Source of the DNA: Reyranella massiliensis 521
Lineage (GTDB): Bacteria > Pseudomonadota > Alphaproteobacteria > Reyranellales > Reyranellaceae
Reading direction: 5' to 3'
NCBI RefSeq assembly: GCF_000312425.1
Contig: NZ_HE997181.1
Coordinates: 1,893,160 to 1,957,159 of the forward strand
Length of the DNA: 64,000 nucleotides
Numbering within the stretch: the stretch's first letter is position 1; each line of letters starts with the position of its first letter. Under the pieces are notes generated by a model that had not been told where the DNA came from, did not search any database, and saw only the letters and a program-made list of their open reading frames with translations. The translations under genes and the position numbers were made by a program. Shown here piece after piece: positions 5,724-40,424 of the stretch.

Positions 5724-5737
5724 TTGACTCAGATCAA
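5724..5737. promoter_or_regulatory. FNR/FixK-type site TTGAC-TCAG-ATCAA
   Basis: Matches the anaerobox TTGAT-N4-ATCAA except for C at position 5 of the left half. Its centre is 58.5 bases from the TMEM175-like start at 5672 on the minus strand, which fits an activator site near -41 with a short leader. It lies between divergent genes and could also touch the DUF2252 side. Confidence 0.7.
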
Positions 5738-5884
5738 ACCCCGGTGGAGCGGTGAAGTTTGCGTCGAGCCCGACGTATCAGGGTACGGATGTGTCGATGC
5801 AACACAACCATCCGTTCGATACGTCAAGCGAATGCAGATCGATGCCCGTTGCCGCGTCGCCCCGTGGTTGCATCATGCGAATGC

Positions 5885-5898
5885 TTGACTTGCATCAA
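5885..5898. promoter_or_regulatory. FNR/FixK-type site TTGAC-TTGC-ATCAA
   Basis: Second anaerobox in the same divergent region. Its centre is 55.5 bases before the TTG start at 5947 of the DUF2252 gene. The site falls inside the longer open frame that begins at 5752, which argues against that longer start. Confidence 0.7.
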
Positions 5899-5946
5899 GG
5901 CCCGCTGAGACGGGCGGACATATTCAGCTCGGGAAGGGGAGGCGAT

Positions 5947-7368
5947 TTGAACAACGTGGCAGCCTTTACGGGTCCGGCTCAGACGCCGCTGGTCAGACGA
6001 CCAGAGTATTCCATCCCTGCGGACGATCTCGTCGCAGCCGGCCAGCGTCTGCGCGATTCGGTCCCGCGGGCGAGTCAAGGTCTCTGGAAGAAGGACAAGC
6101 AACGGCTCGATCCACTTGAAATTCTGCGCGCCTCGGATGCTGGCCGGATTCCCGAGCTCGTCCCGATCCGTTACGGCCGGATGCTGCAATCACCCTTCGC
6201 CTTCTATCGAGGGGCGGCGGGCGTCATGGCCGCCGACCTCGCCGCGACACCCACCACGGGCATTCATGTCCAGGTCTGCGGCGACTGTCATCTGATGAAT
6301 TTCGGCGGCTTCGCCACGCCTGAACGTAGCATCAACTTCGACATCAACGACTTCGACGAGACCCTGCCGGCGCCCTGGGAATGGGACGTCAAGCGGCTGG
6401 TCGCGTCGTTCGTGCTGGCGGCCCGGTCGAATGGCTTGTCGGATGCGGCTGGCCGCGACGCAGCCATCGCCTGTGCCCGGAGCTATCGCAAGCGGTTGCG
6501 GCAAGTGGCAGAGATGAGCCCGCTGGAAGCATGGTACACCCACATCGGTCTGGAAGAGTACCTCGGGCTGATCGACGATCCGGCTGACCAGAAGCGGGTG
6601 CGGCGCAGAATCGACAAAGCGAAAGAAGGAAGGGCATCTGACCTGGATTATCCGAAGTTGGCCAGGATGGTCGGCGGGGTGGTGCAGATCAAGGATCAAC
6701 CTCCGCTCATCTATCACATGGATGTTCAGCATCAGGAGGGCTTCGGCGCCCTCACGGACAAGACGATGGCTGCTTACCGGGACAGCCTTCCGATTGACCG
6801 TCGCGCCCTGTTCGATCGCTACCGCTACGTCGACGGGGCGATGAAGGTTGTGGGGGTCGGAAGCGTCGGCCGGTACTGCTCTATCGGACTGTTCATGTCG
6901 TCGTCCAATGAGCCGCTGTTCCTGCAATTCAAGCAGGCCGTCCCGTCCGTTCTGGAGCCTTACGCGGGCAAGAGCCTGTTTGGCCACGCCGGGGAGCGGG
7001 TGGTCGAGGGCCAGCGCCTGATGCAGGCTTCATCGGATATTTTTCTTGGCCACACGATTGGGCCATTGGGCAACCAACTTTATGTCCGCCAGTTGCGCGA
7101 CGCGAAGATCAAGCCTCTAGTCGAAACCTTCGATCGCGACATGATGAAGATCTACGGCAGGGCGTGCGGTTGGGCGCTGGCGCGGGCGCACGGCAAGGCC
7201 AGCCATCCGTGGCTGGTCACCGGCTATCTCGGAAACAGCGACGCGTTCGACGAAGCGATGGGTGATTTCGCCATTGCTTATGCCGACCAGGCCGAGCGCG
7301 ACCACGCGGCTCTCAAGGCTGCGGTAGGCGCAGGCAGGATTCAGGTCCAGATCGAAGAAGATAGGTAA
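5947..7368 (+). CDS. DUF2252 family protein, complete copy
   Basis: A 473-residue cytoplasmic protein. The frame is open from 5752, but I place the start at TTG 5947: AAGGGGAGG lies 4-12 bases upstream, and an FNR-type box (5885-5898) occupies the preceding DNA. Family marks are GDCHLMNFGG, INFDINDFDETLP and WEWDVKRLVAS, which resemble the catalytic loop and metal-binding parts of a kinase-like fold. The C-terminus is closely related to the partial gene at 1-279. No function is established for the family. Being next to a channel gene under the same kind of regulatory site suggests a stress or low-oxygen role, as inference only. Confidence 0.85.
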   Translation: MNNVAAFTGPAQTPLVRRPEYSIPADDLVAAGQRLRDSVPRASQGLWKKDKQRLDPLEILRASDAGRIPELVPIRYGRMLQSPFAFYRGAAGVMAADLAATPTTGIHVQVCGDCHLMNFGGFATPERSINFDINDFDETLPAPWEWDVKRLVASFVLAARSNGLSDAAGRDAAIACARSYRKRLRQVAEMSPLEAWYTHIGLEEYLGLIDDPADQKRVRRRIDKAKEGRASDLDYPKLARMVGGVVQIKDQPPLIYHMDVQHQEGFGALTDKTMAAYRDSLPIDRRALFDRYRYVDGAMKVVGVGSVGRYCSIGLFMSSSNEPLFLQFKQAVPSVLEPYAGKSLFGHAGERVVEGQRLMQASSDIFLGHTIGPLGNQLYVRQLRDAKIKPLVETFDRDMMKIYGRACGWALARAHGKASHPWLVTGYLGNSDAFDEAMGDFAIAYADQAERDHAALKAAVGAGRIQVQIEEDR

Positions 7369-7520
7369 CGGGTCGTGCCGAGGGTCAACCAGCGGCGCTC
7401 TGCCTTCAACTGGTCTGGTGTGGCATTTCGCCTGATCGAGCACGGCGCGTTCGCCGCACCGCCGTGCTGACAATGTACACGTGTTCCGCGTCATCCTTCG
7501 CCGAGAGACGAGACGTTCGC

Positions 7521-10322: not shown

Positions 10323-12761
10323 TCAATCTCGGGCGAGCGCGCGTGCTGCCTCCTTTTCGAGGTCGATGTACTGCGCTTTTTCGACGGTGACGCCGACGGC
10401 GAATATTACCCCGCCGCTAAACCTCCCAGGCGACTTGTACTCCTGGCTGACCGTGTCGCCGCTGTCGTAACCGACGCAGAGGCCGTCGCCGGACAGCGTG
10501 AATTTGCCAAGCTGCGTGCGCATCGGACCTTCGGCGACGACCTTATCGTTGACATAGAGTTTGGTCCTGCCGAGAGACTCACCATGCTTGCCCGAACTCT
10601 CGCGGGTGAACTCCATCCCGACTGTGTACTTGCCGGGCTTCAGTTCACCGGAAACGAATTTCTGTTCCGGCTTGATGCCCAGAAAGTTGTACACGTAGTA
10701 CAATTTCTTGTTCTTGATGAAGAGCGAGTGACCTCCAAAACGCGAGCCGTGAGCGAAAATCACACCCGACGCATTCGGATCTGTAATCTCGATGTTGGCG
10801 AGAATCTTGTACGATCGGCCGCGCACACTGACGGCAACGCCTTCAGGCACCGGCGAGGTGCCCGGGTAGTAGACATACCTTTCGCGGGCTGCTTCTTCGG
10901 TGGGCCGTTCAACTCCCAGCTGCTCTGCAGCGCTTCGGTCGTCGATCGGCAGCACCATGTTTTTATCTGCTTCTTCGAACCATGCCTTTATGAGCGCTCG
11001 AAGCTTGTCGGGATACTCCTTGGCGAGGTCCTTGGACTCCGACCGGTCGGCGTCCACATGATAGAGCTCCCAACGGTCCTCATCGAAATTACCTTTGCCA
11101 GTGAACGGCGCATGGACAGCGGCAGCCTTCCAGCCATCCTCCCAGATCCCGCGTGTTCCGAGCATCGCGTAATACTGGCGTCTTTTCCGTGTCGGATCGT
11201 GGGGCCTGGCATCAAAGGTGTAGCGCATCGAGACGCCGGCGAGTGGGTATTGATCTATGCCGTGATACACTTTCGGCATTTCCAGTCCGATGATCTCCAA
11301 GAGCGTCGGTACGATATCGACGGCGTGATGATACTGATCGCGAATCTCACCGCGAGCCTTGATGCCCTTTGGCCACGAGATGACCAGCGGATCGATGGTC
11401 CCGCCTGAGTATTGCGAGTAGCGCTTGAACATCTTGAAGGGGGTTGAGAATGCTGCAGCCCATCCTGTCGGATAGTGCGGATAGGTGTTCGGCCCGCCCA
11501 GATCGTTCAAGGCCTTCATGTTCTCCGCCAGATCGTCCGGGTAATTGTTGAAGAACTTGTTCTCGTTCACTGAACCGTTCGGCGTGCCCTCTCCGGACGC
11601 TCCATTGTCCGCCGCGTAGAGCACGATAGTATTTTCGAGTTGGCCTGACTCCCTCAGGTAATCGATGATGCGGCCAATTTGCACGTCCGTATATTCGGAG
11701 AACCCGGCATAGACCTCGGCCATATGGGAGAATAGTTTCTTCTCGTCGGAACTAAGCGAGTTCCATGGGCGCACAAAGTCTGCCTTGTTGGCCACCTCAT
11801 CGGGCAAGGGGTTGAGCGGCGTGAGTTGCGTTCCCTTCGGGAGCACGCCCTTGTCGATCATGCGTGCAAGTACCCATGTCCGGTAAGCGTCATAACCGTC
11901 GTCGAACTTACCCTTGTACTTGGCAATGTATTCTTGCGGCGCATGATGGGGCGCGTGATTGGCGCCGGGGTTGTACCACATGTACCAGGGCCTTGATGGA
12001 TTCGTGGCCTTCTGGTCGCGGACCATCGCGATGGCGCGGTCGGCGAGATCCTTCGAGAGGTGGTAGCCCTTTTCAGGCCCGTACGGCGGCTCAATGAAAT
12101 GATTGTCTTCAACGAGATCCGGATACCACTGATTGGTTTCTCCACCGATAAAGCCGTAGAAGCGGTCGAAGCCCTTCTGGAGGGGCCATAGTTTCCGGCT
12201 GGCGCCCGATGCGACGTCCTGCTCGGCGACGTTATGATTTTTGCCCAGCCAAAAGGTGCTGTAGCCGTTGTCCTGCAGGATCTGACCTATGGTGGCGGCC
12301 TGATCGGGCAACCGGCCATGCGCTCCGGGAAAGCCGTTGGCGCCTTCCGTAATGGCAGCCATGCCGTTCACGTTATGGTTTCGTCCGGTCAGCAGCATCG
12401 ATCGGGTCGGTGAACATAACGCCGCCGTATGAAACTGTGTGTAAGTCAGGCCCTCGGCGGCTATCTTGTCCAGAGTCGGCATGTTGATCCGGCCACCATA
12501 GGGCGACCACGCCGCAAGGCCGGTGTCGTCGTAAAGAATGAAAAGAACGTTTGGCGCACCCTCGGGCGCCTTCTTCGGAATATACGGTGTCCAGTCGGGC
12601 GTAGATTTCCGAACATCGAGATCGATGACGCCCTTGAACGTCGACGGCGCATTTTGGGCCGATGCCATCGACATCAGGACTCCGCATGTTGCGAGGCTGA
12701 TGGCTGCGAGCGGTAACATCATGCGTGTGCTGTCACGCAATTTCAGCTTGGCAGTGGTCAT
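10323..12761 (-). CDS. Periplasmic arylsulfatase (type I, formylglycine)
   Basis: An 812-residue alkaline-phosphatase-superfamily enzyme. It has a cleavable signal peptide (about residues 1-35, ending in SMASAQ), the metal site VLFILYDDTG (D78, D79) and the formylglycine motif CSPTRSMLLTGR with C116. The cysteine would be oxidised by a formylglycine-generating enzyme or an anaerobic maturase, neither of which is in this window. It hydrolyses sulfate esters in the periplasm; the length matches the large arylsulfatase class. The C-terminal 200 residues form the extra beta-rich domain common to this class. An anaerobox (12849-12862) lies upstream, so expression may rise when oxygen falls. No sulfate uptake operon is adjacent. 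Confidence 0.9.
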   Translation of the reverse strand: MTTAKLKLRDSTRMMLPLAAISLATCGVLMSMASAQNAPSTFKGVIDLDVRKSTPDWTPYIPKKAPEGAPNVLFILYDDTGLAAWSPYGGRINMPTLDKIAAEGLTYTQFHTAALCSPTRSMLLTGRNHNVNGMAAITEGANGFPGAHGRLPDQAATIGQILQDNGYSTFWLGKNHNVAEQDVASGASRKLWPLQKGFDRFYGFIGGETNQWYPDLVEDNHFIEPPYGPEKGYHLSKDLADRAIAMVRDQKATNPSRPWYMWYNPGANHAPHHAPQEYIAKYKGKFDDGYDAYRTWVLARMIDKGVLPKGTQLTPLNPLPDEVANKADFVRPWNSLSSDEKKLFSHMAEVYAGFSEYTDVQIGRIIDYLRESGQLENTIVLYAADNGASGEGTPNGSVNENKFFNNYPDDLAENMKALNDLGGPNTYPHYPTGWAAAFSTPFKMFKRYSQYSGGTIDPLVISWPKGIKARGEIRDQYHHAVDIVPTLLEIIGLEMPKVYHGIDQYPLAGVSMRYTFDARPHDPTRKRRQYYAMLGTRGIWEDGWKAAAVHAPFTGKGNFDEDRWELYHVDADRSESKDLAKEYPDKLRALIKAWFEEADKNMVLPIDDRSAAEQLGVERPTEEAARERYVYYPGTSPVPEGVAVSVRGRSYKILANIEITDPNASGVIFAHGSRFGGHSLFIKNKKLYYVYNFLGIKPEQKFVSGELKPGKYTVGMEFTRESSGKHGESLGRTKLYVNDKVVAEGPMRTQLGKFTLSGDGLCVGYDSGDTVSQEYKSPGRFSGGVIFAVGVTVEKAQYIDLEKEAARALARD

Positions 12762-12848: not shown

Positions 12849-12862
12849 TTGATCTGAATCAA
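12849..12862. promoter_or_regulatory. FNR/FixK-type site TTGAT-CTGA-ATCAA
   Basis: A perfect match to TTGAT-N4-ATCAA. Its centre is 94.5 bases before the arylsulfatase start, which is farther than the other sites in the window, so the leader would be longer or the start site arranged differently. Confidence 0.7.
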
Positions 12863-13421
12863 AACACCGCGTGAATTCGCTTTGCCATGCCATGCGGCGC
12901 AGCTTTGAGCGCTCAGTCCAATTTTTTGTCGGCGGCGGAGAACACAGTACGAGCATAATTGACCATTTTTGTGGGTGAGAGAAGGTTCAGGAGATCCCGC
13001 GTGAGAAGGCGCTCCTAGTCGTCTCGATCGAGGCAAGGATGGGATGGCAGCACGCCGTCCTGGCGCACATCGTGATGTGAGTAGCGGAATAGGAGGCCGT
13101 GATAGCCGAAGTCCGGATGGCGTTTGCCCTCGGTCCGAGCAACGCTTTCGTGATCTACGCGCGCAGCTGATCGCTCGGCTATTGCCCCGCGGCCCCCAGC
13201 AACCGGGCGGGCGTAAGATCGAAGCAGTGCTCGAGGTCCATCCGGCAAATGCTGACTAGTCGACGATCGAAGTGTAATGCTGATTGTCGGAGGAATAGCA
13301 GCGTTGGAGGACGACCTTCATCGGACGGCGCTCGTCGAGGAGGGCTGGAGCGACCCGCGCGTCACTCAGCGGGGCAAATCGGCGGGCTCGTCGGCTTGCC
13401 CTCGGCCAGTCGGCCGAGGAT
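12863..13421. other. Gene-poor stretch before a short ORF
   Basis: No frame here has both a good start and protein-like composition. The best is a plus-strand frame at 13044-13259 whose last 40 residues (RFRDLRAQLIARLLPRG and on) look protein-like while the first half does not, suggesting an eroded gene. In the frame of the following short ORF the DNA is open from 13299 but without a start codon. Confidence 0.5.
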
Positions 13422-13592
13422 ATGGCCCGGCTATTGCAGTTCGCCGCCGAGCTGGAATTGCAAGCGAAGGCGCTGGAAGGTGAGATTGAGCCTCCGCCGC
13501 CAGGCCTCATCGAACATGTGCAGCTGCAGATGGAGCAACAGCAGCAATCCGATGCCGTTGCGGACGAATGCGCCGAGCTCCCTAAATCTTGA
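13422..13592 (+). CDS. Short helical protein, probably N-terminally eroded
   Basis: A 56-residue frame beginning MARLLQFAAELELQAKALEG, acidic and helical, then Q-rich (LQMEQQQQ), ending in TGA. The open frame extends upstream to 13299 and reads ANRRARRLALGQSAEDMARLL, which resembles small rhizobial proteins that start with an R/A-rich helix. There is no start codon in that extension, so the present gene either starts at 13422 or has lost its front. I do not recognise a function. The surroundings (12.8-16.8 kb) hold several decayed frames. Confidence 0.4.
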   Translation: MARLLQFAAELELQAKALEGEIEPPPPGLIEHVQLQMEQQQQSDAVADECAELPKS

Positions 13593-13639
13593 TCTGGGTT
13601 CGTCCGACGTAGGCTCGCACTCCTGCTTCTCGCCGTGCT

Positions 13640-13750
13640 TCATCGAGAATTGACGTCGAAATACGCAATCAAGCCCATGACGGCGATCGCTCCCAAGCCG
13701 AGCGCGAGGCCCTTGAAGTTTATGGCCAGAAGAATTGCAATAATAGCCAT
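13640..13750 (-). CDS. Tiny single-pass membrane protein (36 aa)
   Basis: Reads MAIIAILLAINFKG then LALGLGAIAVMGLIAYFDVNSR. Almost the whole peptide is one or two short hydrophobic helices with a polar end. A strong Shine-Dalgarno (GGACGGAGG) ends four bases before the ATG. No family is recognised. It is below most annotation length cut-offs and is supported mainly by ribosome-site quality and composition. The next base overlap (ATGA at 13640-13643) leads into a frame that does not look like protein. Confidence 0.5.
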   Translation of the reverse strand: MAIIAILLAINFKGLALGLGAIAVMGLIAYFDVNSR

Positions 13751-26951: not shown

Positions 26952-29900
26952 CTAGGTGGATCGCCGACGGAAGAGGCGGTCAGGCAGGGCTTTCAGCGTT
27001 TCGCGGATCTTCTGGAACAACACGTAGAGTCCAGGAATGATGAAGATGCCCAGGCAGCTAGCGGCCAGCATGCCGCCGAAGACGGCCGTGCCCACCGCCC
27101 GCTGGGTCGCGGCGCCCGCGCCCGTTGCAATGACGAGCGGCACCAGGCCGACGATGAAGGCGAAGGAGGTCATCATCACGGCGCGGAAACGCAGGCTCGC
27201 CGCCGTTGTCGCCGCCGTCACGGCATCGGCGCCTTTCTCGCGCTCGGCCATGGCGAACTCGACAATCAGAATGGCGTTTTTCGCTGCGAGGGCAATCAGC
27301 ACGACGATGCCGATCTGGGCGAACAGATTGTTGTCGAGCCCGCTCAGCCACAGCGCCGCCATGGCACCAAACAGGCCGGCCGACACCGACAGCAGCGCCG
27401 CTACCGGGATCGCCGTGCTTTCGTACAGCGCGACGAGGAAGAGGTAGGCGAACAGAAGGGCAAGCGCCAGGATGAAGCCGGTCTGTCCCGCAGCTGCCTT
27501 CTCCTGGAAGGCCGTTCCGGTCCATTGGTAGCCGTAGCCGGCGGGTAGTGCCGTCTTTGCAAGCGTTTCCATGGCGGCCATCGCCTGGCCCGAAGAGTAG
27601 CCCGGTGCCGGGCCGCCATTGATGGTGACGGAGCGCAGATTGTTGTAGCGGATGACCTGTGCGGGTGCAGTGACCAGCCGGATCTCGGCGATCGCGCGAA
27701 GCGGGATGAGTTCGCCGGAGGCGTTTCGTATGCGCACGCGGTAGACGTCGCGGGCGACGCGCCGGTCACTTGCTTCCGCCTGGACCTTCACCTGCCAGGT
27801 CCTGCCGAACAGGTTGAAGTCGTTGGCATAGTAGCCGCCCATGGCCGTCTGCAGGGCATCGAACACGTGGGCGATGTCGACGCCCAGGATCTGGGCGCGC
27901 TCCCGGTCGAGGTCGAGATAGATCTGCGGCGTCGCCGCTCCGTAGGTCGTGTAGACGCCGGCCAGCTCGGGAACGCTCTGGGCTGCCGAGACGAGACCGC
28001 GCGCGGTCGCGGCCATGTCGGTCGGCGAGGCTCCTGTACGGCTTACGAGCTGGAACTCGAACCCGGCGGACGTGCTGAGGCCGATGATGGGCGGCAGGTT
28101 GAACGGGATGATGGTCGCGGCCGCAATCCGGCGGAAATCCTGGTTGAGCTGGTCAAGGGCCGCGAACACCGACATGCCGGGAGCCTTGCGTTCGTCGAAC
28201 GGCTTCATCGCCGCCACGAAGAAGGCGCGGTTGGGCAGGTTGAGGCCGTCGAGCATGCTGTAGCCGCTGACGGTGAAGAGGTTCTGCAGCCAGGGCTTGC
28301 CGCGGACGATGCCCTCGACCTGCTCGACGACGGCCAGGGTCCGGCTCGTCGATGCGGCATCCGGCAACTGGATCTCGCCCATGAAGGCGCCCTGGTCTTC
28401 GTTGGGCAGAAAGCCGGTGGGTACGATGCGTGCCAGCCCGCCGGTCCCGGCAATGAAGGCCAGGGCAAGGAGGCCTGCGATCAGAGCGCGGCGCGCCAGC
28501 GGCGTGGCAAGGCGCACATAACCGTTGCGGCTGGCGTCGATGCCGCGGTTCAGGCGGGCAATGATGCCTCTGCTCTTGCCGCGGTGGCGCAGGACCAGGG
28601 AGCAGAGTGCAGGGGACAGGGACAGGGCGTTGATGGCCGAGATCACCATCGATGCCGACACGGCCACGGCGAACTGCTGGTAGAGCTGGCCGGTGATGCC
28701 GGGAATGAAGGCCGTCGGGACGAAGACCGACAGCAAGACCAGCGTGATGGCGATGATAGGGCCCGTTACCTGGCTCATGGCCTTTTCGGTGGCCTGCGCC
28801 GGCGTCAGGTCGGGTTCCGTCTCGAGGATATGCTCGACGGCTTCGACGACGACGATCGCATCGTCGACCACGATGCCGATGGCAAGCACCAGGGCCAGCA
28901 GCGAGATCGTGTTGGCCGAGAAGCCCATGGCCAGCATGATGGCAAAGGTGCCTATCAGGGCAACCGGCACGGCGACGATCGGAATGATCGTGGCACGAAA
29001 ATTCCCGAGAAAGACGAAGACGACGATGCCGACCAGGATAAAGGCCTCGAAGAGGGTATGGATCACGGCCTCGATCGTCGCCTCTACGAAAACCGTGGTA
29101 TCGTACATGACTTCGTAAGCGACATCCTCGGGCAGCAGCGGATCGAGCTCCTTCAGCGTCTCGCGGACGCCCTTGGCTGTGGCGAGCGCGTTGGCACCGG
29201 GCAGCAGGTAGATCTGAATGCCGGCAGCCGGCTTGCCGTTGTAGCGGCCGACCGAGTCGCTCGACTTGGCTCCCAATTCGACCCTCGCCACGTCTTTCAG
29301 CCGGACGACCGTGCCCTGCGGGTTGGTGCGGACGATGATGTCCTCGTATTCCTTGACCGTCGACAGGCGGCCCTTGGTCGTGATGTTGAGTTCGAGTTCG
29401 ACGGGCCCCATCAGCGGGGCGGCCCCGACGCGGCCGACGGCGGCCTGGATGTTCTGCGACTGGATCGCCTTCACGACGTCGTCGGTCGAAACCTCCAGGC
29501 TTGCCAGGCGATCGAGCGAGAGCCAGGCGCGCATCGCGTAGTCGAGCGGGCCGAACAGAACGGCATCGCCCACCCCCGGCACGCGCCGCAGGTTGTCGAG
29601 CATCTCGATGGTGGCGTAGTTCGACAGGAATTGACCGTCCCGGCTGCCCTTGGGCGAATGGACCGCCACGAGCTGCAACAGGGCCGAGGACTGCTTCTTG
29701 ACCGTAACGCCGTTGCGTTTCACCTCCTGCGGCAGACGGGCGGAAGCCTGGTTGACGCGATTGTTTACATTGACCGTATTGAGGTCGGGATCCGATCCGA
29801 CGGCGAAGCTCACCGTCAGCGTGTAGCTACCGTCGCCGCCCGATACCGACTTCATGTAGATCATACGCTCGACGCCGTTGACCTCGGCTTCGATGACCTG

Positions 29901-30092
29901 GGCCACCGTCGCCTCGACCACGGACGCCGAGGCGCCGGGATAGGTCGTCGTCACGCGCACCTGTGGCGGGACAATGTCGGGGAACTGCGACACCGGCAAC
30001 GCCGATGCCGCAATCAGGCCGGCGATCGTGATGACCGCCGAGATGACGAACGCAAAGCGCGGGCGGCGAATGAAGATCGAGGAAATGGTCAT
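26952..30092 (-). CDS. RND efflux pump permease (HAE1/AcrB type)
   Basis: A 1046-residue inner-membrane transporter with the duplicated 12-helix RND layout. Residues of the proton relay are present: [14 protein letters not shown] has the DD pair of helix 4, and [12 protein letters not shown] has the lysine of helix 10. The N-terminus, [21 protein letters not shown], and the large periplasmic loops are standard. It exports drugs or other hydrophobic compounds as a trimer. The gene lies 10 bases after the adaptor gene. No outer-membrane channel (TolC-like) gene is next to it, so that part must be encoded elsewhere. Confidence 0.93.
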
Positions 30093-30102
30093 TGATCTGG
30101 CG

Positions 30103-31206
30103 CTACGGCTGGCCGGACGGGGGTGCCAGCTCGGGCGCTACGGTCATTCCTGGACGAACTCTCTGCTGGCCTTGGACGATGACCTTCTCGCCTTCCTTGA
30201 GGCCGTCTTCGACGACGACGAGCCCGTCGCGCTCGGCGCCGACCTTGATCCGGCGCTGCTCGGCCTTGTCGTCGCGATTTACGACATAGAGATAGTATCC
30301 GCTCTGGTCCGACGCGATCACCGATTGCGGCACCATCACGACTTTGGCCGCCTGCTTCTCCTCCAGGATCACGCGGACCGTCTGCCCGTCGGTCAGACGT
30401 CCGTCGGTATTGGGAAAGCTGGCGCGGAGCGTCTGGCCGTCGGTGCGCGGATCGACCTGAACGTCGATGAAGTCCAGGGTTCCAGGCTCGGGATGTAGGC
30501 TGTCGTCGGCAAGCCGAACACGCACCGTCAACGCTTCTCCCGACGCGCCACCGCGCCGCGCTTCGAGAAGTTCGCGCTGTGTTACCGCGAACAGCACCAT
30601 CATGGGCTGTTCGGCCACGACAGTGGCCAGAATGCCGGACTCCGGCCCTACGACATTGCCCGGCGGGACGTTTGCACGGCCAATGCGGCCGGCGATCGGC
30701 GATCGGATCTCGGTGTAGGAAAGCTTGATCTTGGCGTCCTTCAACGAGGCGTCGGCCTCGGTGAGCGCGCCCTTGGCACCAATGAGTTCGGCTCGACGCT
30801 GATCGAGCGTTTGCTGCGTACCCACGTTAGTACGGGCCAGGTCCTCGGCGCGCTTGAACTGCACTTCGGCATTGGCGAGCGCGCCGACGGCGGCAGCCCG
30901 TTGACCTTCCCGTTGTTCCACGTTCGCCTGATAGGGCTCGGGCTCGATCAGGAAGAGAAGCTGGTCCTGCTTGACGAGGTCGCCGTCCTTGAACTTGCGC
31001 GGGCCCAGGAAGCCCTGGACGCGCGCCCGCAGGTCCACCTTGTCCAGCGCTTGAGCGCGGCCGATGAATTCGCGCTGCACGGCGAGTGAACGCGCCTCGG
31101 CAGGTTGGACGAGGACCGCAAGAGGGGCGGACGTGGGCTGCTGACCGACCGCGGCCGTACTGACGGTCAGCAGCATTGCGAGCAGCACTGCCGGGGACGC
31201 CTTCAT
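30103..31206 (-). CDS. RND efflux periplasmic adaptor (membrane fusion protein)
   Basis: A 367-residue protein with a signal peptide [20 protein letters not shown]. It shows the order lipoyl half, helical hairpin (about 85-160, [30 protein letters not shown]), lipoyl half ([20 protein letters not shown]), then beta-barrel and membrane-proximal domains. It bridges the permease and an outer-membrane channel. AGGGAGACC precedes ATG 31206; the open frame to 31320 is ruled out by the signal peptide. Second gene of an operon starting at 31685. Confidence 0.92.
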
Positions 31207-31229
31207 AATCGGTCTCCCTGGACTCTGGC

Positions 31230-31685
31230 TCAACGACTCTTGGCCGGGCGATACAGGAGCATCACGCCGTCCTTGACGGAGAAGGGAGTAATATCGCTGC
31301 CACGTCGTGCATCTCGCCATACGGGAGGCGATGCCTGCGCGTCGACGGGAACGCCGTGGACCCCCTGGAGCAACTTTTCGATCAGATCGGGCGTGGCGCC
31401 GGGAAAGAACACCACGGTTTGTATCAGTTGATCACCGCCATCGAAGGCGAAGGCGACCGATGCAGGCATGCCGATCATGGTAATGCCGTCGACGAACAGC
31501 GACGGTGCTGCGCCACCTGGCGGCCGCGCACAGGCGGGCACCTGGGGTTGGCATGGCGCGGTTCGCCCGCCGCTGGCCGAGGCGATCTGCCTCGAACTCA
31601 GGCCCCATTCCGCGTACTGCCACCAGCACAGAGCCGGCGCCGCCTGTGCGATGACAAGTACGGCTGCCAGGGCAAGTATCCGCAT
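31230..31685 (-). CDS. Periplasmic protein of unknown function (151 aa), first gene of RND operon
   Basis: Starts MRILALAAVLVIAQAAPALC with a signal peptide; GGGAGG four bases before ATG 31685 makes this start better than 31709. The mature part has four cysteines near its front (ALCWW, APCQPQVPAC) and then FVDGITMIGMPASVAFAFDGGDQLIQTVVFFP. I do not know the family. The stop lies 23 bases before the adaptor start, so it belongs to the efflux operon. An anaerobox is centred 57.5 bases before the start. Confidence 0.65.
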   Translation of the reverse strand: MRILALAAVLVIAQAAPALCWWQYAEWGLSSRQIASASGGRTAPCQPQVPACARPPGGAAPSLFVDGITMIGMPASVAFAFDGGDQLIQTVVFFPGATPDLIEKLLQGVHGVPVDAQASPPVWRDARRGSDITPFSVKDGVMLLYRPAKSR

Positions 31686-31735: not shown

Positions 31736-31749
31736 TTGATTTTGCTCAA
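31736..31749. promoter_or_regulatory. FNR/FixK-type site TTGAT-TTTG-CTCAA
   Basis: Core TTGA-N6-TCAA with one mismatch in the right half (C for A). Its centre is 57.5 bases before the efflux operon start (31685, minus strand) and 112.5 bases before the Tat-exported gene (31855, plus strand). Distance fits control of the efflux operon best. Confidence 0.55.
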
Positions 31750-31854: not shown

Positions 31855-32487
31855 ATGTTTCTGAAAAATCGTCGAACGGCCTTGAAACTGTTGAGCGGTG
31901 CTGCGGTCGCCACGGCTGGTATGCCGCTTGCGGCGAGGGCGCAAAGCGCCGAGTTGACCGTGCCGAACCGCTACCAGAACTTCAAGCGCGGTACGATTCA
32001 TAGCATGCATCCCGAAGCCCGCAGCTTCGTGATCATCTGGCAGGATCTCGGCCGCGTGAAGATGAAGGCTGCGGACCTGGTGACCAACTTCGCGTCGCTC
32101 AGGGTCGGACAAACAGTCGACGTCCACTGGTATGACTACCTGGACTTCCTGATCGCCAAGACGACGCCGGCTGTGACGGCACGCGCGAAGGCCATGCTTG
32201 CGGAAGGCGCAAGGCTGGAGGGCATTCCGGGGGCCCGACAGCGGGTGAACCTGTGGCAGATGTCGGGCATGTGCACCCGGGTCGATACCGCGGGTAACGT
32301 CGTGTACCTGATCAATGCTTCCGGCGGCGAGCCCGACAAGCCGGCCCCCGACAGTGGCGAGGTGATCCAGATGCCGCAGATCGTCACCGAGGAGGGTAAG
32401 GCCGCCCTTCGCACCCTGAAGACCGGCGACCAGATCACGACCGTGTTCAGCCAGCAGACCGCGATCCAGGTGACGGTTATCCGCTAG
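31855..32487 (+). CDS. Tat-exported periplasmic protein of unknown function
   Basis: A 210-residue protein from ATG 31855 (GAGGGGAGAGG upstream). The signal is of the Tat type: KNRRTALKLLSGAAVATAG, then an A-rich end at ARAQS. The mature part reads like two repeats of small beta domains: RGTIHSMHPEARSFVIIWQDLGRVKMKAADLV and KTGDQITTVFSQQTAIQVTV, resembling OB-like folds with TVDVHWYDYLDF between. No cofactor motif was seen. It is followed by the Ca2+/H+ exchanger 60 bases later on the same strand. Confidence 0.7.
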   Translation: MFLKNRRTALKLLSGAAVATAGMPLAARAQSAELTVPNRYQNFKRGTIHSMHPEARSFVIIWQDLGRVKMKAADLVTNFASLRVGQTVDVHWYDYLDFLIAKTTPAVTARAKAMLAEGARLEGIPGARQRVNLWQMSGMCTRVDTAGNVVYLINASGGEPDKPAPDSGEVIQMPQIVTEEGKAALRTLKTGDQITTVFSQQTAIQVTVIR

Positions 32488-34093: not shown

Positions 34094-34876
34094 GTGGATT
34101 CAAAAGCCTATCCCCGTCAGCCTCGGGGCTTAGCGCTCACGAGGCCAAAACAGGCGACCGACCTGCCATGCGACCATTGCATCGGCAGGCATCTGAATCT
34201 TTGCCAGTCCCTGGACGAAGAACGACTTCAGCAGTTGCTGGAGTTGGGAAGCATTCGTCACTGGCAACGGCACCAGATCCTTTTCCGTGCCGGTGACCTT
34301 GCCTCGAGTTTCTTCAAGATCAGGAAGGGCCTCGTTTCGGTCTTCAGGACCCTCGACGATGGCCGCCGCCAGATCGTGGCGGTACGGGTTCCGGGAGACT
34401 GCGTCGGCTATCTGGACACCGACGGCCACTATGCGTTTGGAGGCGATGCCCTGACGGACGTCGAAGCCTGTTCGTTCGACCGACGTCGATTCGATGCTCT
34501 CGCTGCGGAGAATCCCGATCTGGCAGCCGCGCTTGCCGCCGCGCTCTCGAGCGCGCTTGCGCAATCGGGTGAGTCCATGCTCGTCGTCGGCAAGCTCCGT
34601 TCTACGGAACGGGTAGCCCATTTCCTAGGCAAGATGGCGTTGCTCCATCGCGAGCTGTACGCGAAGCCAGGCCCCTTCCAACTTTATATGAATCGCAGCG
34701 AGATCGCCGATCTCCTGGGCCTCACGATCGAGACCGTGAGCCGTTCGATGACCAAGTTGAAGGAGCGGGCGGTCATCGGCCTGATCGAGAGCAACGAAGT
34801 GATCGTTCTGGATCACGCGAAGCTTCGAGAGATCGGCAAGATCGACGACGGTGGCAGGACGAGCGCTATCGGCTGA
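34094..34876 (+). CDS. CRP/FNR family regulator with four candidate Fe-S cysteines
   Basis: A 260-residue transcription factor (GTG start 34094). The N-terminal part has CDHCIGRHLNLC (C26, C29, C37), and C126 in DVEACSF sits where FNR has its fourth cluster ligand; together these suggest an oxygen-labile 4Fe-4S sensor of the FnrN/FnrL/AadR kind. The cyclic-nucleotide-like beta roll covers about 45-140, the dimer helix about 150-180, and the helix-turn-helix NRSEIADLLGLTIETVSRSMTKLKE contains the E-x-x-S-R set that reads TTGA half-sites. Six such sites are in this window. No such site lies before the gene itself. Confidence 0.9.
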   Translation: MDSKAYPRQPRGLALTRPKQATDLPCDHCIGRHLNLCQSLDEERLQQLLELGSIRHWQRHQILFRAGDLASSFFKIRKGLVSVFRTLDDGRRQIVAVRVPGDCVGYLDTDGHYAFGGDALTDVEACSFDRRRFDALAAENPDLAAALAAALSSALAQSGESMLVVGKLRSTERVAHFLGKMALLHRELYAKPGPFQLYMNRSEIADLLGLTIETVSRSMTKLKERAVIGLIESNEVIVLDHAKLREIGKIDDGGRTSAIG

Positions 34877-35251: not shown

Positions 35252-35265
35252 TTGACTTAGATCAA
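35252..35265. promoter_or_regulatory. FNR/FixK-type site TTGAC-TTAG-ATCAA
   Basis: Anaerobox with centre 61.5 bases before the GTG start at 35320 of the DUF3141 gene. It lies inside the longer open frame from 35239, arguing for the later start. Likely drives the four-gene string to 40414. Confidence 0.75.
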
Positions 35266-35319
35266 GACGCGGGTGCGGGAGGCGACGATACTGCCGGCGT
35301 TCAATTCCGGATAGGCAAC

Positions 35320-37485
35320 GTGTCGACACCGCCCAACCTCGGTTTCTTCCACGAGTACTGGCTCGACGCTTGGCAGCGGTCGATCCTGACGCTCGACGCG
35401 CTGCGCGAGCGCGGTAACATCTATTTCGAGCAGTCCGGCAAAGAGGCCCCCAATGTACTGGGCTTTGCAGTCGAGGTCGTGCGTGATGGTCGGACGCTGC
35501 CGCAGCCAGTCAACTACGTGCTCGTGTGGGTCGTGCCACCGGAGAACACGGTGATCGATCCGCTCAAGCCGCCTTTCGTCGTCGTCGATCCGCGCGCCGG
35601 GCATGGACCCGGGATCGGCGGCATGAAGCAGGAGAGCGAGATCGGCGTCGCGCTGGCCGCAGGTCATGCTTGCTACTTCATCGGCTTCCTGCCGGCTCCA
35701 GTGGCGGGTCAGACCGTAGAGCATGTCTGCGCCGCCGAAGCCGCGTTCCTCGAGGAAGTGGCCAGCCTGCATCCCGATGCCGAGGGCAAGCCTGTAATCG
35801 TCGCCAACTGCCAGGCTGGCTGGCAAATCATGATGATGGCCGCGATGCGCCCGGAGCTGTGCGGGCCTCTGGTGCTCGCCGGATCGCCGCTTTCCTACTG
35901 GGCCGGGGTGCGCGGCCGCAACCCGATGCGCTACCTGGGCGGTACGCTGGGCGGGACATGGCTGACGGCGCTCGCCGGCGATCTCGGAAATGGCATCTTC
36001 GATGGGGCAAGCCTGGTCGCCAACTTCGAATCGCTGAATCCTGCCAACACCTACTGGCAGAAGCCCTACAACCTCTACTCGAAGGTCGATACGGAGACGT
36101 CGCGCTTTCTCGACTTTGAAACCTGGTGGGGAAGCCCGGTCCTGCTGAATGCTGGCGAGATGCAGTGGATCGCCGATAATCTGTTCGTCGGCAACAAGCT
36201 GACGTCGGGCGAAATCCGCACTTCCGACGGCGCGCACATCGACCTTCGCAACATCCAGTCGCCCATCGTCGTCCTCTGCTCCTGGGGCGACAACATAACA
36301 CCGCCACAGCAGGCGCTGGGCTGGATCACCGACCTCTATGCCGACGACCAGGACATCGTCGCGAATGGACAGACAATCGTCTACACGCTGCATCAAACGA
36401 TCGGGCATCTCGGCATATTCGTTTCCGGTAAGGTTGCAACCAAAGAGCATGCCGAGTTCGCTTCCTGCATGGAGATGATCGACATGCTGCCGCCCGGTCT
36501 GTATGAGGCCGTGATCACCGAGGTCGACGAGAAGACGAACCGCCCGGACCTCATCCACGGCAAGTATCTCTTTCGGCTGGAAGCACGGACCATCGACGAT
36601 ATCCGTGCGCTGGGCGCCAACAGCCCGGAGGATGACCGCCGATTTGCAACCGTGGCGCGCGTATCGGAGGTCAATCTCGGTCTCTACCGTACGATGCTGC
36701 AGCCCGCGGTCCGGGCCATGACGACGCAGCAATCGGCGGATCTGCTGCGGGAGATGCATGCCAACCGGCTGCGATTTGCGGCTTTCTCCGATCGCAACCC
36801 GGCGATGCGTCCGGTGAAGGAACTGGCTGCGGCCGTTCGCGCCGATCGCAAGCCGGTTGCGCCCAACAACCCGCTGCTTGTCTGGGAGCAGATAGCCTCC
36901 ACATGGATCTCGACTTGCTGGGAGAACTACAGGCTCACGCGCGACGCCATGACGGAAGCGTCGTTCCTAACAACCTACGGATCGCCGGTGCTGCAGTCGC
37001 TCGTGGGGCTCGGCCCTGGAACCGGAACGACCGGGCCGAACAGGGATCTGGTTCGGGAGGCAAATACCGCGCGCCGACAGGTCGACCTCGAAAAACGCTT
37101 CGACGTCGGAGGCTTGGCCGAAGCCGTCATACGGTCGATCATGTATGTCCGGATGCCCGAACACGCCGTCGACGAGCGAGGGTTCGCCGCCTTGCAGGCC
37201 ATCCGGCAGGTTCAGCCGGCCAACCGGCGTCTCGGCCGCAGCGAAGCCAAGATGTTGCTTCGCGACCAGTACCTTTTGCTCCGATCCGATGAGGAGAGAG
37301 CAATCGGGGCGCTTCCCCGGCTGCTGCCGCGCGACGAGCGTCAACGCGGGATTGGCTGGCAGGCCATCCAGGACGTGACCATGGCAAGCGGCGGTCTGCC
37401 GGAGGAAGGCAGACGGCGCTTGCAGCGCATCGGAGAGCTGTTCGACATCAAGCCGCAATCGACATCGGGCACGGAGCATGCCTGA
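35320..37485 (+). CDS. DUF3141 family protein (PHA-synthase-like alpha/beta hydrolase fold)
   Basis: A 721-residue cytoplasmic protein. The start is placed at GTG 35320 (GGATAGG upstream), since the anaerobox occupies the DNA before it. The hydrolase-like part has VVDPRAGHGPGIGG, then VIVANCQAGWQIMMMAAMRP, in which the nucleophile-elbow position holds cysteine (NCQAGW) as in polyhydroxyalkanoate synthases, and later IVVLCSWGDNITPPQQALGW and QTIGHLGIFVSG, holding the expected Asp and His. The C-terminal half is helical. The family occurs beside phosphate acyltransferase and acetate kinase genes, as here; its reaction is unknown. It overlaps the next gene by 8 bases. Confidence 0.8.
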   Translation: MSTPPNLGFFHEYWLDAWQRSILTLDALRERGNIYFEQSGKEAPNVLGFAVEVVRDGRTLPQPVNYVLVWVVPPENTVIDPLKPPFVVVDPRAGHGPGIGGMKQESEIGVALAAGHACYFIGFLPAPVAGQTVEHVCAAEAAFLEEVASLHPDAEGKPVIVANCQAGWQIMMMAAMRPELCGPLVLAGSPLSYWAGVRGRNPMRYLGGTLGGTWLTALAGDLGNGIFDGASLVANFESLNPANTYWQKPYNLYSKVDTETSRFLDFETWWGSPVLLNAGEMQWIADNLFVGNKLTSGEIRTSDGAHIDLRNIQSPIVVLCSWGDNITPPQQALGWITDLYADDQDIVANGQTIVYTLHQTIGHLGIFVSGKVATKEHAEFASCMEMIDMLPPGLYEAVITEVDEKTNRPDLIHGKYLFRLEARTIDDIRALGANSPEDDRRFATVARVSEVNLGLYRTMLQPAVRAMTTQQSADLLREMHANRLRFAAFSDRNPAMRPVKELAAAVRADRKPVAPNNPLLVWEQIASTWISTCWENYRLTRDAMTEASFLTTYGSPVLQSLVGLGPGTGTTGPNRDLVREANTARRQVDLEKRFDVGGLAEAVIRSIMYVRMPEHAVDERGFAALQAIRQVQPANRRLGRSEAKMLLRDQYLLLRSDEERAIGALPRLLPRDERQRGIGWQAIQDVTMASGGLPEEGRRRLQRIGELFDIKPQSTSGTEHA

Positions 37486-38434
37486 TCTCCTACCGTCTCA
37501 AGCACACGAGAAGTACCGGCGGCTGATCGCGGCCGCCCAGAAACACCCGCCGATGGCAACGGCGGTCGTGCATCCTTGCGATGCCGTATCGCTGGAGAGC
37601 GTCAGCGAAGCTGCACGCATCGGCCTGATCAAGCCGATCCTTGTCGGGCCTGTGGCCCGGGTGCGGGACATGGCGCAGCGTGCCTCGATCGACATTGGCG
37701 CTTTCGAGCTGGTGGATTCCCTCCATAGTCATGACTCGGCTGTCAAGGCGGTCGAACTGGTTAGGGCCGGAAAGGCCGAAGCGCTGATGAAAGGCAGTCT
37801 CCACACCGACGAGCTGATGGGAGCGGTCGTGGCGCGCGACAGCGGCATCCGGACGGCCAGGCGCATCAGCCATTGCTTCGTGATGGATGTGCCGACGCAT
37901 GATCAGGCGCTGATCATTTCCGATGCCGCCGTAAATATCGCGCCGACGCTCGAGGTCAAGGTCGACATCGTGCAGAACGCCATCGACCTCGCAAAGGCCC
38001 TTGGGATCGACGTGCCTCGTGTGGCGATCCTCAGCGCAATGGAGACCGTCAATCCCAAGGTGCCGTCGACCGTCGAGGCCGCCGCCCTATGCAAGATGGC
38101 CGATCGCGGGCAGATCACCGGCGGGGTGCTCGACGGGCCGCTCGCGCTGGACAATGCCATCAGCGCCGAAGCGGCGGCCATCAAGCAGATCGTTTCGCCT
38201 GTGGCCGGCCGGGCCAACATCCTCATCGTACCCGATCTGGAAGCCGGGAACATGCTGGCCAAGAGCCTGTCGTTTCTTGCTTCGGCGGACGCGGCCGGGA
38301 TCGTGCTCGGTGCCCGCGTCCCGATCGTTCTGACGAGTCGGGCCGATTCGCTGTCGACCAGACTGGCCTCCTGCGCGGTGGCCAGTCTGGTGGCCGCGGT
38401 GCGCCGGACGCCTGCTGCGGCTGTCAAATCGTGA
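37478..38434 (+). CDS. Phosphate acetyl/butyryltransferase
   Basis: A 318-residue enzyme of the Pta/Ptb family that swaps CoA and phosphate on a short acyl group. Marks: LVGPVARVRDMA, ALMKGSLHTDELMGAVV, GGVLDGPLALDNAIS and ILIVPDLEAGNMLAKSL. Its length matches the short (Ptb or minimal Pta) form, without an N-terminal hydratase domain. It overlaps the DUF3141 stop by 8 bases and precedes FabI and AckA, forming with AckA a route from acyl-CoA to acyl-phosphate to ATP. Whether the acyl is acetyl or larger cannot be told. Confidence 0.88.
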   Translation: MPDLLPSQAHEKYRRLIAAAQKHPPMATAVVHPCDAVSLESVSEAARIGLIKPILVGPVARVRDMAQRASIDIGAFELVDSLHSHDSAVKAVELVRAGKAEALMKGSLHTDELMGAVVARDSGIRTARRISHCFVMDVPTHDQALIISDAAVNIAPTLEVKVDIVQNAIDLAKALGIDVPRVAILSAMETVNPKVPSTVEAAALCKMADRGQITGGVLDGPLALDNAISAEAAAIKQIVSPVAGRANILIVPDLEAGNMLAKSLSFLASADAAGIVLGARVPIVLTSRADSLSTRLASCAVASLVAAVRRTPAAAVKS

Positions 38435-38442
38435 GGGCGCCC

Positions 38443-39222
38443 ATGAGAGAAGCCATCCGGCCGGTGCTGACAGGCCACAAGGCACTGGTCGTCGGAATCG
38501 CCAACGACCAGTCCATTGCCTATGGCTGCGCCCGCGCCTTCCGCGACGCCGGGGCCGACATTGCCGTCACATGGCTGAATGAGAAGGCACGGACTTACGT
38601 CGAACCGTTAGCCGACGAGCTGGAAGCGCCGATCAGGGCGGAGCTGAATGTCGCCGTGCCCGGGCAGCTCGAAGCCGTCTTCGACGAAGTCGCACGCAAG
38701 TGGGGAAGGCTCGACATTCTTGTGCACTCGATTGCATTTGCCCCCTTGGACGACCTGCGCGGCGGATTGCTCGATTGTTCGGCCGAGGGCTTCGCCAAGG
38801 CGATGGACGTTTCCTGCCACTCGTTCATTCGCATGGCCCGCCTTGCCGTGCCGCTGATGAAGGACGGCGGCACGATGTTTGCCATGAGTTACTACGGCGC
38901 CAGCCGCGTCGTGCCAAACTACAACGTCATGGGGCCGGTCAAGGCGGCGCTGGAGGCTTCGTGCCGCTATCTCGCCTACGAGCTGGGACCTCGCGGCATT
39001 CGGGTGCATGCCATCTCGCCCGGCCCGCTCAAGACACGGGCGGCGTCCGGTCTGAAGGATTTCGAGCTTTTGCTCAACGAGGCGGCCAAGAAAGCGCCGC
39101 TGGGCGAACTCGTCGACATCATGGATGTCGGCTACGCCTGTGCCTACCTCGCGACACCGTTCGCCCATCGGATCACCGGCGGGACGGTTTATGTCGACGG
39201 CGGCACGAACATCGTGGCCTGA
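38443..39222 (+). CDS. fabI: Enoyl-ACP reductase, FabI type
   Basis: A 259-residue NADH-dependent short-chain dehydrogenase relative. FabI features are the GIANDQSIAYGCARAF nucleotide loop, VHSIAFAP, SYYGASRVVPNYNVMGPVKAALEA with the catalytic Y and K spaced as Y-x6-K, and the SPGPLKTRAASGL end loop. It reduces the double bond of enoyl-ACP in fatty acid elongation. The position between Pta and AckA genes, rather than in a fab operon, suggests a second copy with a special role, perhaps redox balance at low oxygen. ATG 38443 lies eight bases after the Pta stop. Confidence 0.9.
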   Translation: MREAIRPVLTGHKALVVGIANDQSIAYGCARAFRDAGADIAVTWLNEKARTYVEPLADELEAPIRAELNVAVPGQLEAVFDEVARKWGRLDILVHSIAFAPLDDLRGGLLDCSAEGFAKAMDVSCHSFIRMARLAVPLMKDGGTMFAMSYYGASRVVPNYNVMGPVKAALEASCRYLAYELGPRGIRVHAISPGPLKTRAASGLKDFELLLNEAAKKAPLGELVDIMDVGYACAYLATPFAHRITGGTVYVDGGTNIVA

Positions 39223-39229
39223 GCCGACC

Positions 39230-40414
39230 ATGGCCTCGACACCGGGCTGCATCGCCGTCCTCAATGCGGGCTCTTCGAGCATCAAGTTCGCGCTTTACGA
39301 CGCACGTCCTGACGGGAACCTGCTGTTCCGCGGCCAGATCGAGAAGCTGGGCCTTGCTCCGCATCTGATCGCCCGAGATGCGGCGGGCGTGACCGTCGTC
39401 GAGAGACATTGGCCGGAGGGCGGCCTCGATCACCATTCGGCGACGGCCGAGATCATGACGATGGGCCGCGAGTTGCTGAACGGCCGGCCCGTGCTTGCCT
39501 TCGGGCACCGGGTGGTCCACGGCGGCACCGCGTATTCGGAGCCCGTGCGGATCGATGCGGCGATCATGGCCGACCTGGCAAAGCTCGTACCCCTGGCGCC
39601 ACTGCATCAGCCGCACAACCTCGCACCGATCGCGGCGATTGCGGGCGCGGCGCCGGATTTGCCGCAGATCGCCTGTTTCGACACGGCATTCCATCGAACG
39701 CAGCCGGCGCTTGCCCAGGAATTCGCCCTGCCGCGGGAGATCACCGCAAGCGGCGTAAGGCGCTACGGCTTTCACGGCCTTTCCTACGACTATGTCGTGC
39801 GGCAGGTGCGGAAGACGCTGACGCTTGCTCCAGAGGCGCGGCTGGTCGTTGCCCATCTCGGCAATGGGGCCAGCCTTTGCGCCGTCCGCGACGGCAGAAG
39901 CGTGGCCAGTACCATGGGCTTCACGGCCGTCGACGGCCTGATGATGGGAACACGCACAGGCGCGCTGGACCCCGGTGTGCTGCTCTATCTCCTGCAGGAG
40001 CGCGGCTTCGATGCCGCGAGGATCGAAGACCTGATCTACCGGCGATCGGGCCTGCTCGGCGTATCGGGCCTCTCGTCCGACATGCGTACGCTCCGGCAAT
40101 CCAAGGCGCCGGAAGCAGGCGAGGCGATTGCGCTGTTCGTCTACCGGATCGTTCGCGAGATCGGCTCGCTTGCCGCGGCCATGGGAGGAATCGACGCGAT
40201 CGTGTTCACTGCCGGCATCGGCGAGAACGATGCCGCGACGCGGGCGGAGATCGTGGCGGGATGCCGGTGGTTGGGCCTGGAACTCGACGAAAGGCTCAAT
40301 GAGCAGGGCGGTCGTTGCATCAGCGCGGCCGGTGCGACGGTTTCCGCCTGGATCGTTCCAACCGATGAGGAGCGCATGATCGCTCACTATACCCGTGAAG
40401 CTCTGGCCGATTGA
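39230..40414 (+). CDS. ackA: Acetate kinase
   Basis: A 394-residue enzyme that makes ATP from acetyl-phosphate and ADP. All ASKHA family marks are present: VLNAGSSSIKF at the start, GHRVVHGG, HLGNGASLCAV, MGTRTGALDPG and FTAGIGEND. Length matches the family (about 400). ATG 39230 is seven bases after the FabI stop, so translation is probably coupled. The stop codon TGA overlaps the next anaerobox. Confidence 0.93.
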   Translation: MASTPGCIAVLNAGSSSIKFALYDARPDGNLLFRGQIEKLGLAPHLIARDAAGVTVVERHWPEGGLDHHSATAEIMTMGRELLNGRPVLAFGHRVVHGGTAYSEPVRIDAAIMADLAKLVPLAPLHQPHNLAPIAAIAGAAPDLPQIACFDTAFHRTQPALAQEFALPREITASGVRRYGFHGLSYDYVVRQVRKTLTLAPEARLVVAHLGNGASLCAVRDGRSVASTMGFTAVDGLMMGTRTGALDPGVLLYLLQERGFDAARIEDLIYRRSGLLGVSGLSSDMRTLRQSKAPEAGEAIALFVYRIVREIGSLAAAMGGIDAIVFTAGIGENDAATRAEIVAGCRWLGLELDERLNEQGGRCISAAGATVSAWIVPTDEERMIAHYTREALAD

Positions 40415-40424
40415 CGAATATCAA
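40411..40424. promoter_or_regulatory. FNR/FixK-type site TTGAC-GAAT-ATCAA
   Basis: Anaerobox overlapping the acetate kinase stop codon (40412-40414). Its centre is 54.5 bases before the PPK2 start at 40472, giving that gene its own promoter in addition to read-through. Confidence 0.7.

Follow-up and report, generated by a model that had tools for sequence, protein, structure and literature searches.

Predicted FNR/FixK-type sites are clustered at a locus of Reyranella massiliensis 521 that encodes an FNR-type regulator and DUF2252, DUF3141 and polyphosphate kinase 2 proteins

The stretch of DNA analysed here, referred to as the window, comprises 64,000 nucleotides of Reyranella massiliensis 521 (positions 1893160-1957159 of a single contig of 5.79 Mb). 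Seven copies of the FNR/FixK-type site TTGA-N6-TCAA are found in it, together with genes for an FNR-type regulator, a TMEM175-like channel, a DUF2252 protein, a sulfatase, an efflux system, the DUF3141 operon and polyphosphate kinase 2 (PPK2). The coordinates are collected in Table 1; positions below 64,000 refer to the window and larger ones to the contig. The window contains most of one of two clusters of such sites on the chromosome, and the sites quite probably serve as activator sites of a low-oxygen survival and energy programme. Six of them (5724, 5885, 12849, 31736, 35252 and 40411) had been listed in an earlier sequence-only reading of this DNA, and all were found where it placed them; a seventh, at 4740-4753 (TTGAGGCAAGTCAA), had been left off that list. 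Shuffling of the window 100 times gave a mean of 0.45 sites, with none of the shuffles reaching seven. Throughout, TTGA-N6-TCAA is the looser form of the site and TTGAY-N4-RTCAA the strict one, with the reversed pattern used as a control.

Table 1. Sites and genes of the window, the two site clusters, and DUF2252 paralogues located near strict sites.
Feature	Position	Strand	Details
404-aa gene	3469..4683	-	lies below the 4740 site; without a Pfam match
FNR/FixK-type site	4740..4753	-	TTGACTTGCCTCAA on the minus strand; -10 TAATCT at 4718-4713; faces gene 3469-4683
TMEM175-like channel gene	5082..5672	-	Pfam TMEM175, 1e-17
Strict site	5724..5737	-	TTGATCTGAGTCAA; poor -10 box; faces TMEM175-like gene
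Strict site	5885..5898	+	TTGACTTGCATCAA; -10 TATTCA at 5921-5926; faces DUF2252
DUF2252 protein gene	5947..7368	+	Pfam DUF2252, 3.6e-135; TTG start
Sulfatase gene	10323..12761	-	Pfam Sulfatase, 2.9e-60
Strict site	12849..12862	-	TTGATTCAGATCAA; weak -10 TAGGCA; faces sulfatase
Efflux genes, taken as one operon	26952..31685	-	31736 site upstream
RND permease	26952-30092	-	efflux operon
HlyD-type adaptor	30103-31320	-	efflux operon
151-aa protein, probably exported	start 31685	-	efflux operon
FNR/FixK-type site	31736..31749	.	-10 TACGAT at 31713-31708 (minus, efflux); TAGGCT at 31772-31777 (plus, gene from 31855)
210-aa gene	31855..32487	+	divergent from efflux operon
FNR/FnrN-type CRP-FNR regulator (P0001)	34094..34876	+	260 aa; Pfam cNMP_binding and HTH_Crp_2
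Strict site	35252..35265	+	TTGACTTAGATCAA; -10-like GATACT at 35287-35292; faces DUF3141
DUF3141 operon	35320..40414	+	four genes in one string
DUF3141 (hydrolase like polyhydroxyalkanoate (PHA) synthase)	35320-37485	+	weak PHA synthase matches
Phosphotransacylase	37478-38434	+	DUF3141 operon
FabI-like enoyl reductase	38461-39222	+	DUF3141 operon; start set at 38461
Acetate/propionate-type kinase	39125-40414	+	DUF3141 operon; limits are those of the open reading frame
Strict site	40411..40424	+	TTGACGAATATCAA; -10 TAGGCT at 40447-40452; faces PPK2
Polyphosphate kinase 2 gene	40472..41269	+	TIGR03707 over cut-off; Pfam PPK2
Cluster 1	1,890,370-1,933,583		7 strict sites; spans this window and 2.8 kb left of it
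Cluster 2	4,612,560-4,644,123		9 strict sites; stress/survival genes and a FixK-type regulator gene
DUF2252 paralogue	1892038-1893435		end is window 1-276
DUF2252 paralogue	1899106-1900524		window 5947-7368
DUF2252 paralogue	2698901-2700259		

With the gene starts set by reading the open reading frames (ORFs) at 5672, 5947, 31685, 35320 and 40472, the five corresponding site centres lie 58.5, 55.5, 57.5, 61.5 and 54.5 bases away, in agreement with the range of 54-62 bases given in the sequence-only reading; the sulfatase start, set at 12761, lies 94.5 bases from the centre of its site. The DUF2252 start is one from which the closest relatives align (from residue 1-9). PPK2 follows the DUF3141 string with a site of its own. 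The constancy of the spacing, on which the same reading had leaned, was dropped as the main argument because the distances vary in relatives, from about 48 to 85 bases in the majority of the PPK2, DUF2252 and closer DUF3141 rows and up to 141 bases in distant DUF3141 rows.

Conservation of the sites was examined as the presence of an exact site within -150 to +12 of the projected start in loci of relatives, taken as the best 30 or fewer per search rather than every match. The DUF3141 loci (75, three with too little flank) came from a search that extended beyond the genus, and the window's own row is absent from them. The PPK2 site is found in 17 of 21 loci at 70% identity or more (own row counted) and in 1/9 at 50-70%, where the eight loci at 50-53%, none with a site, were taken as paralogues. 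For DUF2252 the site is kept in 10/10 loci at 70% or more (own counted), 5/7 at 50-70% and 0/13 below 50%, these last being regarded as distant paralogues, and for DUF3141 in 13/20 and 11/52 loci at 70% or more and at 50-70%, respectively; the nearest DUF3141 proteins are those of an unclassified alphaproteobacterial metagenome-assembled genome (84%) and of many Reyranella records (~72-75%). The reversed pattern did not occur in any of the relatives' loci tested. The inner six bases of the site differ among relatives while its arms are constant, as fits the footprint of a protein. The operon itself recurs as well, with phosphotransacylase, FabI and kinase genes located on the same strand within 5 kb after DUF3141 in 32 of the 59 loci with enough flank, 27 of them in this order.

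The scan of the whole genome that the sequence-only reading had proposed shows a clear excess of sites, with 71 matches to the looser form against 26 for the reversed pattern, and 32 strict sites against 3. The regulon is not scattered, as that reading had described it, since 16 of the 32 strict sites fall into two clusters that occupy 1.3% of the chromosome. The densest 45 kb hold nine strict sites; when the sites were placed at random 5000 times, the maximum averaged 2.6 and did not exceed five. The positions of the 32 sites were classed against ORFs taken with the longest possible starts. Among the 18 strict sites of the clusters and of a pair located near ccoN, 13 lie between ORFs, four in the 5' ends of ORFs (6 to 139 bases inside the start, these ORFs being taken as over-long), and one, at 1890370, close to the 3' end of a doubtful ORF. 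The other 14 include five between ORFs, two at most 45 bases from an ORF start, and seven deep in long ORFs, showing that scattered matches do arise by chance. As an explanation of the sites at large, chance or base composition is nevertheless very improbable in view of the shuffles, the reversed patterns, the footprints, the promoter alignment given below and the combination of a site with TANNNT at class II distance, which occurs 12 times genome-wide (six in the cluster spanning the window, four inside the window) and never with the control pattern. It is ruled out for the DUF3141, DUF2252 and PPK2 sites, and may still apply to that of TMEM175.

Five DUF2252 paralogues are encoded in the genome, and three of them have a strict site nearby, at 1891918, 1899044 and 2700658; ~360 bases with a small ORF separate 2700658 from the gene at 2698901-2700259. 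No strict site is listed near the other two (48-50% identity). A sulfatase paralogue at 3198486-3200732 (39% identity) is located ~110 bases below the strict site 3198258.

The position of the sites relative to the promoter was analysed in 62 promoters aligned on the site alone (25 DUF3141, own included, 18 PPK2, 15 DUF2252, two efflux, one TMEM175 and one sulfatase), a set whose rows are mutually related and thus do not amount to 62 independent events. With the site centre set at -41.5, columns -12 (T, 44%), -11 (A, 68%) and -7 (T, 55%) rise above background, and 79% of the promoters have a G at -33, after the site. TANNNT starts between -13 and -11 in 28 of the 62, compared with 14 hits summed over the other 53 offsets, and by family it is found in 15/18 PPK2, 8/15 DUF2252 and 2/2 efflux promoters. 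In the window, well-placed -10 boxes (p 0.006-0.033, uncorrected for two directions) accompany the sites 4740 on the minus strand, 5885, 31736 in both directions, 35252 and 40411, with p between 0.006 and 0.029 for 4740 and for both sides of 31736. Class II geometry, with the site centre at -41.5, is well supported by these alignments as the predicted arrangement for PPK2 and DUF2252. With a -10 box on each side, the 31736 site may drive transcription in both directions, towards the efflux operon and towards the gene at 31855, which is a possible second target of this site.

The second cluster includes genes for universal stress proteins, CBS proteins, a cytochrome c, a ribosome-hibernation/cold-shock fusion, a beta-CASP protein, Hsp60, Hsp20, a cation ATPase, PfkB and a PAS histidine kinase, among others, in which we read a survival theme. 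A further pair of strict sites is located at 385-387 kb, one of them directly before ccoN (the cbb3 oxidase gene), with a -10 box at p 0.02, and the other in front of a gene that, from our reading of the start of its translation, resembles those for universal stress proteins. This pair lies ~3-5 kb from a FixL/FixJ-like pair, so named from our reading of the translations, and from a FixK-type gene (391536). The ccoN site serves as an internal positive control because the cco operon is a known FNR target (PMC2908626). A second copy of ccoN (591274-592659) has no strict site listed nearby.

The protein encoded at 34094 carries the cysteines C26, C29, C37 and C126 and a recognition helix I-E-T-V-S-R of the E-x-x-S-R type, bearing out the cluster-type cysteines and helix assigned to it from the sequence. 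Its closest relatives in the PDB are FNR-type regulators (E 3e-22), with C126, which we take to be the fourth cluster cysteine, aligned to one of theirs. The C-x2-C-x7-C motif is present in all 12 orthologues at 57% identity or more (own counted). The best NCBIfam match, FnrL NF045989, scores 119.8 bits, below the cut-off of 300 bits, so the protein was not filed as FnrL; its cluster cysteines exclude an identity as FixK. It resembles the FNR of Aliivibrio and E. coli in sequence, in the matching central cysteine and in the predicted -41.5 class II geometry (PPK2, DUF2252), and differs in the N-terminal motif, which is C-x2-C-x5-C in those proteins. The targets of the Aliivibrio and E. coli proteins differ from the set in Reyranella.

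Six matches to this protein, one of them partial, are found elsewhere in the genome. Across the genus, the number of sites tracks FNR/FixK regulators as a group. Of 37 genomes compared, 32 have an FNR/FixK match at E<1e-15, a cut-off of our own choosing, and their strict sites number 27 at the median (874 in total, reversed 135); in the five without such a match the median is 10 (p = 0.0008, one-sided Mann-Whitney test). The 34094 type at 57% identity or more is found in 12 of 41 genomes of the genus (own counted), and in 10 of the 11 others the gap between its gene and PPK2 is 0.16-1.02 kb. In R. massiliensis 521 the two genes are 5.6 kb apart, and in one genome (G064) they are on different contigs.

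Several observations weigh against the interpretation given above, and the first of them concern the regulator. Two FixK types (391536 and 4630853, the latter inside the second cluster) lack the cysteine motif, share the helix I-E-T-V-S-R with the 34094 protein, and could suffice without it. In seven genomes (G007, G011, G014, G032, G036, G062 and G063) a PPK2 orthologue was found and an intact cysteine-type FNR was not, and the PPK2 site is exact in five of these and has one mismatch in G011 and G036. Six of the seven have as their best full-length match a FixK-like protein in which the cysteine motif is absent; in G007, which is 73% complete, there was no regulator match at all, which lessens its weight. 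In G014 (99% complete) an FNR frame of 175 amino acids (G014:C48:600723-601193) keeps the cysteines, lacks the middle, and yielded no helix motif; it is possibly a decaying regulator gene in a genome that retains the PPK2 site. No exact site was found directly before the 34094 gene, and strict sites outnumber reversed ones, 49 to 21, even in the five genomes that lack a regulator match. It is possible, with chances somewhat below even, that the sites are read mainly by the FixK types at 391 kb, beside the FixL/FixJ-like pair, and at 4.63 Mb, with the 34094 protein as a minor or local partner; the closeness of its gene to PPK2 in other genomes and the cysteines kept in every orthologue suggest instead a working part of the unit. 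As judged from these comparisons, the site set is independent of the 34094 protein alone, because the PPK2 site is kept where an intact cysteine-type FNR was not found. The sequence-only reading had presented this protein as the regulator of all the sites; as sole regulator it is rejected on that ground and by the presence of the FixK types and of a second cysteine-type FNR (2665679, 56% identical, N-terminal cysteines present). A common regulator of FNR/FixK type, which that reading also implied, is backed by the footprints, the clustering and the co-occurrence with FNR/FixK genes. The sites might belong to another member of the CRP/FNR family, such as a DNR-type sensor of nitric oxide, with a signal other than oxygen. 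Further members are encoded at 596502 and 2760661, and the motifs of the subfamilies overlap, but the helix E-T-V-S-R, which fits TTGA arms, is present in two FNR and two FixK types, ccoN carries the site, and the number of sites follows the presence of FNR/FixK, making this alternative improbable.

The remaining points concern individual genes and promoters, to which the mutual relatedness of the aligned promoters should be added. DUF3141 homologues without a site make up 7/20 at 70% identity or more and 41/52 at 50-70%. The site of the first efflux gene is found in the own copy and in one of four relatives at 50-70% identity (G035, 62%), and in neither of two below. That of TMEM175 is present in the own copy only, with two others scored (~30% identity) lacking it; TMEM175 matches occur in 3 of 40 other genomes of the genus, none above 34% identity. 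The sulfatase site is likewise limited to the own copy (0/29 relatives, all below 50% identity), and no sulfatase orthologue above 50% was found. Membership of TMEM175, sulfatase and efflux genes in the regulon is thus weakly supported by these comparisons. The proposal that places all targets on an equal footing under one oxygen signal is not borne out in that form: the sites of PPK2, DUF2252 and DUF3141 are kept, but TMEM175 and sulfatase have no close orthologue, and the efflux site is kept in 1/4. The activator position near -41 claimed along with it is supported by sequence for PPK2 and DUF2252, but TANNNT is found in just 3 of the 25 DUF3141 promoters, which speaks against a class II -10 box shared by every target. 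In these promoters [TG]ANNNT occurs in 7/25, the own copy being GATACT (p 0.033), with A at -11 (76%) and T at -10 (56%) prominent and mostly G at -12. TANNNT is absent from the sole TMEM175 and the sole sulfatase promoter (0/1 each), where the -10 boxes of 5724 and 12849 on the minus strand have p of 0.26 and 0.10, and in the second cluster, with the better of the two directions taken, just 2/9 strict sites have p below 0.05.

In several Reyranella relatives (L047, L048, L049, L069, L091, L111 and L112), the DUF3141 promoters have a TGACGCAGTGCAGC[AG]TAA-like stretch after the site and upstream of the expected -10 box. Elsewhere in the window, the region 13000-26900 has few long convincing ORFs, with Pfam matches in two of ten scanned (transglutaminase-like and Na/H exchanger), and possibly represents decayed genes. 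The zinc ribbon of an IS1595-type transposase is located at 48752-49492, ~8 kb beyond the right-most site of the cluster, and is followed by genes for polysaccharide synthesis and export (glycosyltransferase, epimerase, Poly_export) at 52295-62178. A tRNA scan and an Rfam scan at gathering scores found nothing in the window.

The programme outlined at the start would operate as follows. With falling oxygen, the 34094 FNR would assemble an iron-sulphur cluster and form a dimer, which would occupy the sites at -41.5 and bring in RNA polymerase. A FixLJ-FixK branch, encoded at other loci, would use these sites too, and two oxygen sensors would thus feed one promoter set. Phosphotransacylase and kinase would convert acyl-CoA to acyl-phosphate and then yield ATP, the enoyl reductase would re-oxidise NADH, and PPK2 would buffer phosphate and nucleotides. 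Such a supply of ATP from acyl-CoA with re-oxidation of NADH is what the parts of the DUF3141 operon would be compatible with. Protection of idle cells would fall to the second cluster, with its universal stress proteins, Hsp20, Hsp60, ribosome hibernation factor and cation ATPase.

FNR and FixK regulons using this site are well known in Alphaproteobacteria, as described in the available portions of PMC4999443 and PMC2908626. The FnrN/FnrL and FixK regulons of those accounts resemble the present one in the type of site, in the combination of a cysteine-type FNR with a cysteine-free FixK, in cco and universal stress protein targets, and in several copies per genome. For Rhodospirillales, the same portion of PMC4999443 gives only FnrN, with mainly redox targets (21 genes in 17 operons), whereas in Reyranella FixK types are also present, half of the strict sites lie in two clusters, and the targets include DUF3141-phosphotransacylase-FabI-kinase, PPK2, DUF2252 and the efflux operon. 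The takeover of FnrN sites by FixK was proposed there for Caulobacterales (PMC4999443). In a phaR mutant of B. diazoefficiens, pta and two ackA genes were up, according to a study of microaerobic metabolism (PMC10888616). Papers on DUF3141 and DUF2252 included none on oxygen, as judged by titles and the starts of abstracts; by title, those on Reyranella with FNR included none on this subject and those on FNR with DosR-type genes none that was relevant; papers on clustered FnrN/FixK, going by their titles and the openings of their abstracts, did not deal with this gene set, and those on the ANR box contained nothing relevant. Relative to the published regulon accounts, in the parts available, the targets, the clustering and the mixture of FNR and FixK go further, while the kind of regulon is itself known.

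The list of genes in the second cluster resembles the targets of the mycobacterial DosR dormancy regulon, namely universal stress proteins, Hsp20, CBS proteins, a cation ATPase, PfkB and a ribosome hibernation domain, although DosR is a response regulator and the Reyranella regulators belong to the CRP/FNR family. We can speculate, on rather doubtful ground, that a DosR-like dormancy programme has been packed into two FNR/FixK islands, the first supplying ATP from acyl-phosphate and polyphosphate and the second shielding idle ribosomes and proteins. The promoters would then outlive their regulator, FNR and FixK being exchanged over fixed sites and the FNR gene moving together with PPK2. As conserved members of the predicted low-oxygen regulon, DUF3141 and DUF2252 would gain a testable context, and the locus may illustrate, on a small scale, how a regulon can evolve by a change of regulator over sites that stay in place.

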